Shown here: piece after piece, positions 3,853 through 13,860 of the stretch
Position numbering within the stretch: position 1 is the stretch's first letter
How the letters are laid out: the number at the start of each line of letters is the position of its first letter
Assembly: GCA_023129325.1 (NCBI GenBank)
Contig: JAGMCI010000029.1
Location: 1 to 39,936, forward strand
Direction: 5' to 3'
Length of the DNA: 39,936 bases
Source of the DNA: Caldifarciminota bacterium
Lineage (GTDB): Bacteria > Hydrothermota > UBA3073 > JACQXS01 > JAGMCI01
The notes under the pieces: model-generated
Told to the model about the DNA's origin: nothing
The model's database searches: none
What the model saw: only the letters and a program-made list of their open reading frames with translations
Program-made: the position numbers and the translations under genes

Positions 3853-4815
3853 ATGATTGAATTTGTGATTCTTGGAATATTAGTGGTGCTTATCATCATA
3901 TTTTTATTCTATATGTCTCATACAAAGCGTGCCATAGAGGATTTAAAGAATAATCCAACACTGAATTTAATGCAACAACAACTTCAAGGCACAACTCAGC
4001 AAATTAATTTAAGGCTTGATAATACAGCTAAGACAATAAAGGATATGGCTCTGGCAGCACAAAGAGTCTCTGATATAGGAGCTAATATTGCCAGTCTTCA
4101 AGAATTGCTCAAGCCCCCAAAATTTAGAGGAGAGTTGGGAGAATTCTTTTTAGAAAATCTTTTGGCTCAAATTCTGCCTCATAGTCATTATGAAACTCAA
4201 TATGTTTTTAAAAGTGGAAATAAGGTAGATGCAGTAATTCATCTTGGAGAAAAGCTTGTTCCAGTTGATTCAAAATTCCCCTTGGAAGATTTTGAAAGAG
4301 TAATAAAAAGTGCCCCTGACTCGGAACATACAGCCCATCGTAGAAATTTTATAAAAACTGTCAAAAAGCACATTGATGATATTGCAAGTAAATATATTCT
4401 CCCAGATGAAGGCACTTATGACTTTGCCTTGATGTATATTCCGGCTGAAAATGTATATTATGAAACAATCATTAAAGATACAGAGCCTAAGGAAAGTAGT
4501 ATCTTTTCTTATGCCATGGAGAAAAAAGTTATCCCTGTCTCGCCTAATTCATTTTATGCTTATTTGCAGGTAATTATTGAAGGCTTACGAGGCTTCCATA
4601 TAGAGAAAAAAATACAAGAGGTTATTCAATCAATTTCAAGATTACAGGGTGATTTTAATAGATTTAGGGAAGACTTTGATACAGCTAACAGGCATCTAAC
4701 TAATGCTAAAAATAAATTTGATGAAGCAGAGCGTAAATTACTCCAGCTTGGAGATAAATTAACTTCTGTCAGTAAGCTCCCGGAAAGAGAAACCAAAACC
4801 CTCCCCGATAAATAA
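3853..4815 (+). CDS. rmuC: DNA recombination protein RmuC family
   Basis: 320 aa. A membrane-anchor helix (residues 2-20, IEFVILGILVVLIIIFLFY) is followed by a coiled-coil region and the RmuC core: RGELGEFFLENLLAQILP around residues 95-112, then KVDAVIHLGEKLVPVDSKFP with conserved acidic and lysine positions. RmuC proteins limit inversions and rearrangements and are predicted nuclease-like. This one is shorter than the E. coli protein (475 aa) because its coiled coil is short, but it matches the compact form seen in many phyla. A repeat abuts the start codon and no ribosome-binding site is visible. Its last 68 bases are repeated 993 bp downstream, next to the mscS 3' end. Confidence 0.9.
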   Translation: MIEFVILGILVVLIIIFLFYMSHTKRAIEDLKNNPTLNLMQQQLQGTTQQINLRLDNTAKTIKDMALAAQRVSDIGANIASLQELLKPPKFRGELGEFFLENLLAQILPHSHYETQYVFKSGNKVDAVIHLGEKLVPVDSKFPLEDFERVIKSAPDSEHTAHRRNFIKTVKKHIDDIASKYILPDEGTYDFALMYIPAENVYYETIIKDTEPKESSIFSYAMEKKVIPVSPNSFYAYLQVIIEGLRGFHIEKKIQEVIQSISRLQGDFNRFREDFDTANRHLTNAKNKFDEAERKLLQLGDKLTSVSKLPERETKTLPDK

Positions 4816-5053
4816 ATTCAAAAATTAAATATCAAATATCAAAATTACATATCAAAAAGCAGAAATCATAAACACGAATATTACAAATTAGACGAATATC
4901 CACGAATAAAAAAGGTAGTTTAAGGTTTTATTCGTGTAATTTGTGTTAAACTTTTTAATTTTTTATTTGTCATTTTAATTTTTGCATTTTGATTTTTAAT
5001 CTTTTTTCAGTTCCACGGTTGTTATTGGAAATGGGATTACAATGCCCTCTTTT
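4748..5053. repeat. Direct repeat copy 1 (rmuC 3' end + spacer + mscS 3' fragment)
   Basis: This 306-bp segment is repeated at 5741-6046 with a constant offset of 993 and only about three base differences seen by eye (near 4797, 5019 and 5034). It contains the last codons of intact rmuC, the AT-rich palindromic spacer (AAATATCAAAATTACATATC on the left, TTTGTCATTTTAATTTTTGC on the right) and a truncated copy of the mscS 3' end. The spacer between rmuC and the small membrane gene (4816-5227) contains no other gene. Confidence 0.95.
4996..5053 (-). pseudogene. mscS 3'-end fragment (duplicated remnant)
   Basis: Read on the minus strand, this encodes EGIVIPFPITTVELKKD plus the stop, identical to the C-terminus of the intact MscS at 5989. 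Upstream of the fragment about 29 bp are missing relative to the intact gene, after which a short match (TCATGAGCCACA versus TCATGAGTCACA) resumes and then ends. It is a non-functional by-product of the junction duplication. Confidence 0.9.
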
Positions 5054-5653: not shown

Positions 5654-5740
5654 GGAAGAAACTAATCTTGGTAAGGCAGAATGTCCTGTTCAAGAATTTC
5701 TTGAATTAAAAGGAGAAAGTAGTGCGAAAATTACTACATT
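5654..5740 (+). other. Truncated coding remnant next to the duplication junction
   Basis: One frame from about 5654 reads without stops and looks coding (ETNLGKAECPVQEFLELKGE), ending at a TGGAGATAA stop inside repeat copy 2. A second frame has AAAGGAGAAAGTA followed by GTG CGA AAA TTA, resembling a Shine-Dalgarno plus GTG start that runs into the duplicated rmuC end. Either could be the remnant of a second gene carried by the inserted segment and cut at the junction. This is weak evidence from 87 bp. Confidence 0.35.
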
Positions 5741-6046
5741 TTGGAGATAAATTAACTTCTGTCAGTAAGCTCCCGGAAAGAGAAACCAAACCCCTCCCCG
5801 ATAAATAAATTCAAAAATTAAATATCAAATATCAAAATTACATATCAAAAAGCAGAAATCATAAACACGAATATTACAAATTAGACGAATATCCACGAAT
5901 AAAAAAGGTAGTTTAAGGTTTTATTCGTGTAATTTGTGTTAAACTTTTTAATTTTTTATTTGTCATTTTAATTTTTGCATTTTGATTTTTAATCTTTTTT
6001 CAGTTCCACAGTTGTTATTGGAAATGGAATTACAATGCCCTCTTTC
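5741..6046. repeat. Direct repeat copy 2 (rmuC 3' fragment + spacer + mscS 3' end)
   Basis: Partner of 4748-5053. Positions 5741-5808 are a duplicate of the rmuC 3' end including its TAA stop, without the rest of the gene. From 5989 on the sequence is the true 3' end of intact mscS. The gap between the small membrane gene and mscS (5654-5988) holds only this repeat and the short coding remnant before it. Confidence 0.95.
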
Positions 6047-8368: not shown

Positions 8369-8392
8369 TATTGTTTTCTAAAATTTTTATTT

Positions 8393-8442
8393 GGAGTGCA
8401 AAATCGGTGATTTTGCATGCAACAACATCGTTGTTGCACTCC
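8393..8442. repeat. REPIN-like double-hairpin element, left copy
   Basis: 50 bp. It is framed by GGAGTGCA and TGCACTCC, with two hairpins inside: GCAAAATC-GGT-GATTTTGC and TGCAACAAC-ATC-GTTGTTGCA. It lies between the RAYT stop and the amidase gene. It is identical over 49 bp, and in the same orientation, to the copy just upstream of the RAYT start. Confidence 0.92.
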
Positions 8443-8447
8443 ATATT

Positions 8448-8987
8448 TTAAAAATCATCTTTCACCTTCACTTTATTAAATGGATATTCTTTTTCTATTC
8501 TATTTGCTCCCCCAGGGTCTATTTTGCAAAACTTTAAATAACTGCTGAAATTCCAATCCTGGGGAGTAGCTACATACCCATGTTTGACAGGATTGTAATG
8601 TATATAATTTAATCTTGCAAAGTATGAACTTTCAAAAGTAATACAAGCATCCCAATAATTCCACCATACTTTTCTACCTGCCACATTATCTTCCTTATTG
8701 AACTGGATTGCTGTAAATTTGTGTATTTCTTTAATTATAGCAGATAATGAAGATGCATTGTGGGGAGCCTGTGCAAGTAAATGATAATGGTTATCTAATA
8801 TAACCCATGCATCAATCTTCCAGTCAGCTTGTGTGAATTTATTGTAGAGCAAATCTAATAGATAAGATTTATTGGGGTTACTTTTAAAGTATGGTATTTT
8901 TTGATAAGTCGCCGCCGTTATCATATAAACTTGATTGCTATCAAAATAATGAGGTGGCGAATGTTTATAGATTTTATAATTCTTCAT
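8448..8987 (-). CDS. REP-associated tyrosine transposase (Y1/IS200-like, RAYT)
   Basis: 179 aa. The HUH motif is visible as WVILDNHYHLLAQAP (residues about 62-76, HYH), and the candidate catalytic tyrosine lies in the helix NYIHYNPVKHGYV (about 127-139). FARLNYIHYNPVKHGYV and the WNFSSY motif near the C-terminus are typical of RAYTs (TnpA_REP). RAYTs nick and rejoin single-stranded DNA at REP hairpins. Here near-identical 49-50 bp double-hairpin elements lie 5 bases after the stop and 8 bases before the start, as expected for a RAYT with its own REP family. No paired left/right IS ends beyond these are seen. No clear ribosome-binding site. Confidence 0.9.
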   Translation of the reverse strand: MKNYKIYKHSPPHYFDSNQVYMITAATYQKIPYFKSNPNKSYLLDLLYNKFTQADWKIDAWVILDNHYHLLAQAPHNASSLSAIIKEIHKFTAIQFNKEDNVAGRKVWWNYWDACITFESSYFARLNYIHYNPVKHGYVATPQDWNFSSYLKFCKIDPGGANRIEKEYPFNKVKVKDDF

Positions 8988-8995
8988 TTCACTTT

Positions 8996-9044
8996 GGAGT
9001 GCAAAATCGGTGATTTTGCATGCAACAACATCGTTGTTGCACTC
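8996..9044. repeat. REPIN-like double-hairpin element, right copy
   Basis: 49 bp identical to 8393-8441 (GGAGTGCAAAATCGGTGATT and onward to GTTGTTGCACTC), lacking only the final C. It sits immediately upstream of the RAYT start codon. Confidence 0.92.
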
Positions 9045-9360
9045 AGATTATTTGATTTATAATACTACACATTTTACAAAAATCAACAAAAAACTTTAAC
9101 ATAGTACACAGATTTACACAGATATTTCTTGTAAATAGCTCTTCAGATTTTCTCCTTGTAGCCGAACCCCTGTCTCGATGAAAACGGGGCTTTAGGGTTC
9201 GCTCTGCGAGGACTGAAGCCCTGCACTATATCTTTCTATAATCTGCGTAAATCAGCGTCCGATTTAAATCTGTGTAATCTGTGGTTTCGTCTCTTTGATT
9301 TTTGATGTCTAATCTCGCCTTCCTAATTAACCAATTAACTAATTAACTAATTAACTTGTT
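9045..9360. repeat. Nested palindromic repeats in a 420-bp gene-free gap
   Basis: The outer arms are ACACAGATTTACACAGATAT (about 9106) and TTAAATCTGTGTAATCTGTG (about 9265). Nested between them is an element beginning GTAGCCGAACCC (9160) with GGGTTCGCTCTGC and GAAGCCCTGCAC to about 9225. Downstream are TTAACTAATTAACTAATTAA (about 9330) and a CTCTGTGGTTAAA half-repeat. I see no gene between the RAYT and the promoter at 9430. Confidence 0.7.
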
Positions 9361-12063: not shown

Positions 12064-12139
12064 GTAGGCACGATTTTAAATCGTGCTATGGAGTGCAACA
12101 ACGGTGTTGTTGCATGCATTAACATAGTTAATGCACTCC
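12064..12139. repeat. Hairpin plus REPIN-like double hairpin in a 5' leader
   Basis: First a hairpin GCACGATTT-T-AAATCGTGC preceded by GTAG (12064-12086). Then a 50-bp element (12090-12139) framed by GGAGTGCA and TGCACTCC, containing GCAACAAC-GGT-GTTGTTGC and TGCATTAAC-ATA-GTTAATGCA. Frame, length, spacing and the first loop equal those of the RAYT-flanking copies, while the stem bases differ in a paired fashion. Confidence 0.9.
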
Positions 12140-12158: not shown

Positions 12159-12635
12159 ATGGTAAAAGTATTAAGAAGTAGCGGAGTGGTAGCCCTTCTT
12201 GGGCTATTCGTTTTGATGCTCTCCGGCTGTGCTGGTATACCAAAGGTAGAAGTGCCAGGAGCAAAAAAAGTAGTCAAGAAAGCAGTTGCGGAAGCTACAG
12301 TTGAAGTGCTGGAAGTCAAGATGGAGAAAATAGCAGAGGGGGCTTCAGAAGAATACGGCACTATTAAGATAACCGGCAAAGCTGTATATCATCCTGCTAA
12401 GGTTGGTGGCAAGGCTTTTAAAGATATGGCAAGTGACCCAAGGTTCAATCTTTTAGATGCCGCTGGTAGGAAGGTACAGACCTTTAATGTACCTCTTGAC
12501 TGTGGTGAATATGGTAAAGCCGAGAATGTTGTCGCTGGTGAGCCATTTCCATTTGAAGGTGAAAATAGTATGGTGAAAAAGGCTAATTGGCTAATAATAG
12601 AGTCTGTTAAGTTAAACGAGTGGAAGGTCTTTTAA
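12159..12635 (+). CDS. Lipoprotein, unknown function
   Basis: 158 aa. A signal peptide with lipobox LSGC (Cys24) predicts lipidation. The mature part starts with a lysine/valine-rich linker, then a region with YGTIKITGKAVYHPAKVGGKA and a beta-rich C-terminus. No known family recognised. A strong Shine-Dalgarno (AAAGGAGGTGTT) precedes the ATG. The promoter lies about 130 bp upstream, with a palindromic element in the leader. Confidence 0.8.
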   Translation: MVKVLRSSGVVALLGLFVLMLSGCAGIPKVEVPGAKKVVKKAVAEATVEVLEVKMEKIAEGASEEYGTIKITGKAVYHPAKVGGKAFKDMASDPRFNLLDAAGRKVQTFNVPLDCGEYGKAENVVAGEPFPFEGENSMVKKANWLIIESVKLNEWKVF

Positions 12636-13273: not shown

Positions 13274-13350
13274 GTAGGTGCAAATTCAATTTGTGCAAGC
13301 ATGATTTAAAATCGTGCTTTATTTTGGAGTGCAAAATCGGTGATTTTGCA
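13274..13350. repeat. Row of hairpin half-elements (GTAGG and GGAGTGC families)
   Basis: GTAGG, an imperfect TGCAAATT/AATTTGTGCA hairpin, a second hairpin AGCATGATTT/AAATCGTGCT, then GGAGTGCAAAATCGGTGATT completed by TTGCA (13326-13350), which is exactly the first half of the RAYT-flanking element. The second half is missing. Located in the leader of the beta-barrel gene. Confidence 0.85.
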
Positions 13351-13365
13351 ATAAATTAGGTTAAA

Positions 13366-13860
13366 ATGAAAATTTGTAAATATTTTATAATATTGTTTGC
13401 TTTGGAATTTGCAAGCCAGAGCTTGGCTGGTAAACTTACTATTGGGGTAAAGGCTTCTATATATGACCCTCCTGGCGCTCCTGGACCTACTCCTATGGTC
13501 GGTGGGTATGTAAGTTATAGTATTGGTAAATATCTAAATATAGAAGGAGCAGTAGAATGGAGTAATTATGATAATACTACCTTTATGCCCATAACTGTTA
13601 ATACAGTATATCATCCATTAGGAAGGAAGGTTTTTAATCCATATATTGGTGGAGGAATTGGATATTACTATAAAAAGGTTAATGATGCGCCAGAATCCAC
13701 CATTGGCTGCCAATTGCTTCTTGGTCTGAACTGGAATCCACCTCAGGCTTTTGGATTAAGTTTAGAAATAAAATACATCATCCCAGACATCAAAAATACA
13801 AGTGAAAGTGGATTTTCCTATGGTGGTGCAATAACAGGAACAATGATAATGGAGTTATGA
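13366..13860 (+). CDS. Outer-membrane beta-barrel protein (small porin-like)
   Basis: 164 aa. A signal peptide (residues 1-21, IILFALEFASQSLAG) is followed by alternating amphipathic strands (LTIGVKASIY, MVGGYVSYSIGKYLNIEGAV, FNPYIGGGIGYYY). The FNPYIGGGIGYYY phrase and an open-ended C-terminal strand (GGAITGTMIMEL) are typical of OmpW/OMP_b-brl proteins with about eight strands. No Shine-Dalgarno is obvious (TTAGGTTAAA). Its stop overlaps the next gene's start (ATGA). Confidence 0.75.
   Translation: MKICKYFIILFALEFASQSLAGKLTIGVKASIYDPPGAPGPTPMVGGYVSYSIGKYLNIEGAVEWSNYDNTTFMPITVNTVYHPLGRKVFNPYIGGGIGYYYKKVNDAPESTIGCQLLLGLNWNPPQAFGLSLEIKYIIPDIKNTSESGFSYGGAITGTMIMEL

Follow-up and report, generated by a model that had tools for sequence, protein, structure and literature searches.

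REP elements are defined by a GT[A/G]G head at the foot of a hairpin (PMC2817692, PMC3686654, PMC6006769), with GTAG variously degenerated to GYAG, GYRG, GTRG or GTMG (PMC3733652), and this foot has been treated both as the defining feature of REPs and as a search filter. The mechanistic model comes from TnpAREP of E. coli, Stenotrophomonas and Marinomonas, in which the head helps to pick the cleavage site; for Marinomonas, the selection of CT depends on A3 and G4 of the head (PMC8266576). Residues W94, Q95, E100, H101 and R104 of the E. coli protein have been discussed for GTAG recognition (PMC6006769). Regarding the stems, "selection for complementary mutations" was described in 2010 (PMC2817692), and alternative complementary residues were listed for most REP families in 2013, in a study that also proposed a preference for heterodimers, possibly as a protection from enzymes that cleave palindromes (PMC3733652). 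Additionally, a 2018 survey grouped eight cyanobacterial proteins with GT[A/G]G REPs as subclass 2.8 (PMC6006769).

The window analyzed here, a stretch of 39,936 nucleotides, is contig C22 of a 2.02-Mb assembly (57 contigs, 89% complete). It carries a RAYT gene between two REPIN copies (Table 1), and all REPs beside this gene lack the canonical GT[A/G]G head at the hairpin foot and have GGAG instead. Our analysis points, with a probability of about 85%, to a real RAYT/REPIN system (REPtron) with a new head variant, in which the RAYT gene is flanked by its own non-autonomous REPINs that are dispersed in the genome. The original prediction had described a RAYT accompanied by its own REPINs, a 50-bp relative and a half copy, and its coordinates and sequences proved correct. 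The second flanking copy ends in CTCA where the first ends in CTCC, which is one altered head base. At both dispersed sites of the window (12064-12139 and 13274-13350) GTAG REPs of another family, that of the RAYT on contig C36, directly adjoin the GGAG REPs, and cognate copies of both GTAG-headed elements were found at locus L015. The window also holds a 300-bp direct repeat (4711-5010 and 5704-6003, 96% identical, 993 bp apart).

Table 1. REP elements and RAYT gene in the window.
Feature	Position	Strand	Description
REPIN copy 1	8393-8442	+	50 bp double hairpin beside the RAYT gene
REPIN copy 1, REP	8393-8417		GGAG-TGCAAAATC-GGT-GATTTTGCA
REPIN copy 1, inverted REP	8418-8442		GGAG-TGCAACAAC-GAT-GTTGTTGCA; directly abuts the first REP
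RAYT gene	8448-8987	-	179 aa; between both REPIN copies
REPIN copy 2	8996-9044	+	49 bp identical to copy 1
GTAG-headed REP, other family	12064-12086	+	GTAG-GCACGATTTTAAATCGTGC; resembles REPs beside the C36 RAYT; adjoins the 12090 REPIN
REPIN variant	12090-12139	-	50 bp; stops 19 bp 5' of the start codon of the ORF at 12159
Decayed GTAG-headed REPIN, C36 type	13274-13317	+	adjoins the 13326 GGAG REP
Single GGAG REP (half REPIN)	13326-13350	+	15 bp upstream of the start codon of the ORF at 13366

By profile, fold and cognate REPs the encoded protein is a member of the RAYT (TnpAREP) family. It scores 113.2 bits with the NCBIfam model NF047646, "REP-associated tyrosine transposase" (cut-off 80), matches Pfam PF01797 (Y1_Tnp) and reaches only 18 bits with the IS200 transposase model NF033573, below the cut-off of 55. 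The E. coli RAYT-REP complex (PDB 4er8) is its best match both by sequence and by fold (Foldseek E 5e-11, AlphaFold2 model with pLDDT 90). The HuH motif reads N66-H67-Y68-H69, Y128 aligns with the catalytic tyrosine of E. coli and N132 is also present; N66, H67, H69, Y128 and N132 are invariant in an alignment of 36 relatives. In the head-contact strand, W108, W109, D113, A114 and T117 correspond to W94, Q95, E100, H101 and R104 of E. coli, so that H101 and R104 are lost. As is required of a RAYT, the gene is flanked by cognate REPs with dispersed genomic copies. The records with the most similar RAYTs belong largely to Stahlbacteria/WOR-3 and other candidate phyla.

The REPs extend through the genome, where the original prediction had only the window to go by. 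Copies were collected by pattern search: the head GGAGTGCA occurs 124 times, and each occurrence was examined with about 50 downstream bases, GGAG being present in all 124 by construction, while a de novo search across the RAYT family separately gave GGAG as the top head. In 70 of the 124 the head leads straight into a hairpin in which 7 or all 8 pairs form (0.09 expected with shuffled downstream sequence), with three-base loops in 61 cases (22 distinct sequences) and TT loops in nine (7 distinct). The pattern GGAGTGC-N15-45-GCACTCC has 14 matches in 2.0 Mb against none for the control, and 13 of these are true complete inverted pairs, that is REPINs. The elements combine the conserved 5' tetranucleotide, perfect palindrome and inverted pairing of the wider REP/REPIN definition. 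Taken by itself, the number of heads (124, with 4 occurrences of the reversed word) exaggerates the enrichment, as the reversed word contains CpG, and raw counts in relatives were set aside because GGAGTGCA exceeded a CpG-biased control in most genomes, with or without a RAYT.

Other palindromes were noticed as well. A headless one, CCGTYAGCTRACGG, has 48 copies in genome G000 against none for the reversed word (e.g. C9:21993, C9:66313, C25:8670 and C16:12453; loci L135, L136, L146 and L144), and it often lies in the loop of another palindrome, also within GGAG REPs (C10:7644, C23:40056), forming nested palindromes. Other GC-rich palindromes, such as TTGTCCCGAATTTATTTCGGGA and CCCGTCCCGACACGGAACGGGTCGGGA, interrupt GGAG REPs in their stem or loop; insertions of GC-rich palindromes into these REPs of G000 were located at C2:54850, C30:28111, C50:640, C54:27801, C23:48960, C41:40351 and C25:12930.

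The stems covary, as had been predicted, rather than drifting unpaired: 21 distinct hairpins gave a covariation score of 0.306, compared with 0.084 after shuffling (0/500) and at most 0.092 in slid controls, and 18 double-change cells against 6.0 in shuffled sets, although REPIN copies share descent and these cells, like the heterodimers described below, are therefore non-independent counts. Within the window, the element at 12090 is 84% identical to the RAYT-flanking copy over 56 nt in opposite orientation and 76% over 59 nt in direct orientation, the less good one, which the original prediction had used. Read on the minus strand, it has an unchanged stem, GCAACAAC/GTTGTTGC, in the second hairpin and three compensated pairs in the first, GCAAAATC/GATTTTGC against GCATTAAC/GTTAATGC. 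The paired changes reported for this element are accordingly real in one hairpin, whereas the claim of two paired sets arose from comparing non-corresponding halves. The further claim that paired changes imply selection went too far, since intrastrand template switching at imperfect hairpins yields the same pattern.

Among known mutational processes is quasi-palindrome correction, which, by copying one arm of an imperfect hairpin onto the other, could have produced the compensated stems from mutation alone, with no selection needed. Most of the 70 hairpins are perfect (59) and few are single-side intermediates (11 with one mismatch), as this explanation predicts, and selection predicts the same. 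However, where RAYTs have diverged between genomes, the stems next to their genes have not, indicating that something keeps the stem sequences: the RAYT-flanking REPINs of the window are identical to those at locus L049 of genome G002, despite a gene identity of 84% overall and 76% at third codon positions. Furthermore, a paired stem is required for cleavage by published RAYTs (PMC8266576). We regard mutation alone as a possible though rather doubtful source of the pattern. The covariation supports the hairpin structure, and the kinship of copies together with template switching limits what it says about selection.

A second property of the stems concerns the two halves of each REPIN. None of 69 REPINs in eight genomes has identical stem arms, where about 19 would be expected from random pairing within genomes, and between the two arms of one REPIN there are 2 to 4 differences in 8 positions. 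The REPIN pattern search also recovered collapsed 29-nt elements, in which a single hairpin lies between two heads, as expected from central deletion of a REPIN pair. That homodimers are absent may explain in a simple way the diversification of stems by paired changes: each hairpin would have to pair, its sequence being free to change in compensated steps, and the two would have to avoid matching each other, differing stems presumably keeping a REPIN from turning into a 50-bp perfect palindrome.

The genome of the window also offers an internal comparison for the head. It encodes three further Y1 transposases (contigs C36, C18 and C56), each with its own flanking palindromes, all headed by GTAG. 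At the positions aligned to W94, Q95, E100, H101 and R104 of E. coli these three RAYTs have the canonical residues W-Q-[DE]-H-R, and the GGAG RAYT reads W-W-D-A-T.

Heads and proteins were also compared across the RAYT family, with relatives taken from related genomes and GTDB genome contigs. GGAGTGC proved to be a single instance of a broader class of GGAG heads: without presupposing a head, GGAG was the top tetramer before hairpins, at 50 of 99 loci beside RAYT relatives (1 in shuffled sequence). Heads could be called at 65 of these loci, 48 GGAG and 17 GTAG or GTGG, the other 34 giving no head call. In a RAYT tree built without the head-contact columns, 91 rows form one group (SH-aLRT 97) that includes the cyanobacterial GTAG RAYTs; within it GTAG is confined to one 17-row clade (support 100), mostly cyanobacteria plus one myxococcote, and all called rows outside this clade are GGAG, so that two head changes suffice on the tree. 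GGAG hosts span about ten phyla, including Cloacimonadota, Fidelibacterota (Neomarinimicrobiota), Planctomycetota, Ignavibacteriota, Nitrospirota, Chloroflexota, Pseudomonadota, Armatimonadota, Buchananiibacteriota and Stahliibacteriota, many of them represented by metagenome assemblies for which single phylum assignments may be wrong. All 15 GTRG rows have R or H at position 101 (E. coli numbering), and 43 of the 46 GGAG rows carry T, Y, K, S or A there, a correlation between aligned residues and heads that rests on two changes in the tree and is not a proof. Two other candidates for the head determinant were rejected: W99 splits GGAG from GTRG inside the family, yet E. coli combines W99 with GTAG, and Q95 is replaced in nearly the whole family regardless of the head. 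REPs at three loci (L029, L034 and L036) start with GGAGTAGC, which holds both GGAG and GTAG, and could be intermediates between the two heads.

The position of the dispersed copies 15 to 19 bp upstream of start codons (12090 and 13326) would fit hairpins kept as host regulatory elements, such as 5' leader structures or attenuators, to which the RAYT is incidental. We consider this very improbable, because GGAG hairpins are concentrated around RAYT genes family-wide (29.9 per 10 kb up to 300 bp from the gene, falling to 0.7 at distances of 600-1100 bp, with 0.3 for resampled sequence; 10.9, 0.7 and 0.2 for GTAG hairpins) and the identity of the head tracks the RAYT lineage.

The REPINs are also associated with the RAYT at the genome level. 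In a set of 150 related genomes, with RAYT presence judged by tblastn (E up to 3e-25), at least three GGAGTGC REPINs were found in 9 of 20 genomes with a family RAYT and in 8 of 130 without one (Fisher p 2.7e-5). The link is not strict in this set, as four genomes (G014, G020, G023 and G125) have many GGAG REPINs and no detected family RAYT, which may reflect assembly gaps or loss. The 50-bp REPIN of the window also recurs unaltered elsewhere in G036, a genome whose own RAYT shows about 63% identity to that of the window. This G036 RAYT, at locus L050 (ORF 645-1296, G036:C622), contains an in-frame, degenerate GGAG REPIN that separates the HuH motif from the Tyr motif, a feature described as unique to subclass 2.4 (PMC6006769).

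How the locus reached its present distribution bears on a third explanation, that the REPIN-RAYT-REPIN block is an IS200/IS605-like mobile unit whose internal-deletion derivatives are the dispersed REPINs. The DNA common to the window and L049 covers 8371-9051 only and ends at the REPINs, amid different neighbouring genes; for this pair of genomes RAYT identity (78%) exceeds that of enolase (72%), unlike in three other genome pairs; and the RAYT family is patchy among relatives. Insertion sequences, however, tend to be multicopy, and no second copy of the GGAG RAYT was found in the window's genome, while the ends of the block are identical, in contrast to the unlike ends of the multicopy, autonomous IS200/IS605 units. 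In addition, gene order varies between bacterial families anyway, and REPtrons apparently do not move as a unit (PMC6006769). We regard this explanation as unlikely. Horizontal transfer is likely, and transposition of the block as a unit is possible.

Returning to a REPtron with a changed head, its mechanism can be proposed by analogy with the TnpAREP proteins studied so far. The RAYT, a single-tyrosine HuH nuclease, would bind REP hairpins on single-stranded DNA, and the unpaired 5' tetranucleotide would recognise the foot and select the cleavage dinucleotide; the RAYT would then cut and rejoin REPs, with REPINs copied or moved in trans. GGAG differs from GT[A/G]G at head position 2, and given that A3 and G4 are kept, the CT cleavage site would be expected to be kept as well. 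GGAG is probably a second widespread class of REP guide, read by one RAYT family with a changed head-contacting strand and missed by surveys based on GT[A/G]G. If so, a single T-to-G change at position 2 has been tracked by the protein, and specificity could be tested by swaps. The occurrence of GGAG heads in about ten phyla means that REP surveys missed a class, mostly in uncultured lineages, and related RAYTs with heads one base apart are natural pairs in which head reading and the choice of cleavage site become testable.

As to novelty, the original prediction had called a GGAGTGC-type REPIN with stem covariation unfamiliar, and this holds for the head only, compensated stems having been described before (PMC2817692, PMC3733652). 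We found no mention of "GGAG" in the REP papers searched, nor together with "RAYT" in the other papers covered. The GGAG head is what is new here, and an earlier record of it may still stand in the supplementary REP table of PMC6006769 or in the paper defining RAYT groups 1-5 (10.1093/gbe/evx146).

Lastly, the system shares features with several described ones. With the E. coli REPtron (TnpAREP, PDB 4er8) it has in common the protein fold and family and the REPs flanking the gene, but the E. coli system has a GTAG head, a bulged and longer stem and a C-terminal tail contacting the head, and its Q95, H101 and R104 are replaced in the window RAYT. Group 3 REPtrons (Stenotrophomonas, Marinomonas; PMC8266576, PMC2817692) also have a head that is followed immediately by a perfect stem of 8-9 bp, a short loop, REPINs of two inverted REPs and a RAYT flanked by its own REPs; they differ in their GTAG or GTGG head and in the motifs WQ and YI[VI]ANP, compared with W[WYHF] and YIHYNP here. 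The atypical REP-like structures of subclass 2.6 and class 3 (PMC6006769) resemble ours in having heads other than GT[A/G]G, whereas by description they are weaker structures (with a CnGA foot in class 3) beside proteins with other motifs, which in subclass 2.6, mostly from Bacteroidetes, are WQ and YIH[QN]NP. The window RAYT family appears to be related to subclass 2.8 (PMC6006769), with which it shares NHYH, a W followed by an aromatic residue or His, YIHYNP and a length of about 180-200 aa. The motifs of subclass 2.8 are NHYH, W[YH] and YIHYNP; the window protein matches NHYH and YIHYNP and reads WW at the second motif, where other family members read WY, WH, WF or F-. Unlike subclass 2.8, which was described from cyanobacteria only, most members of the family described here occur in other phyla and are accompanied by GGAG REPs.
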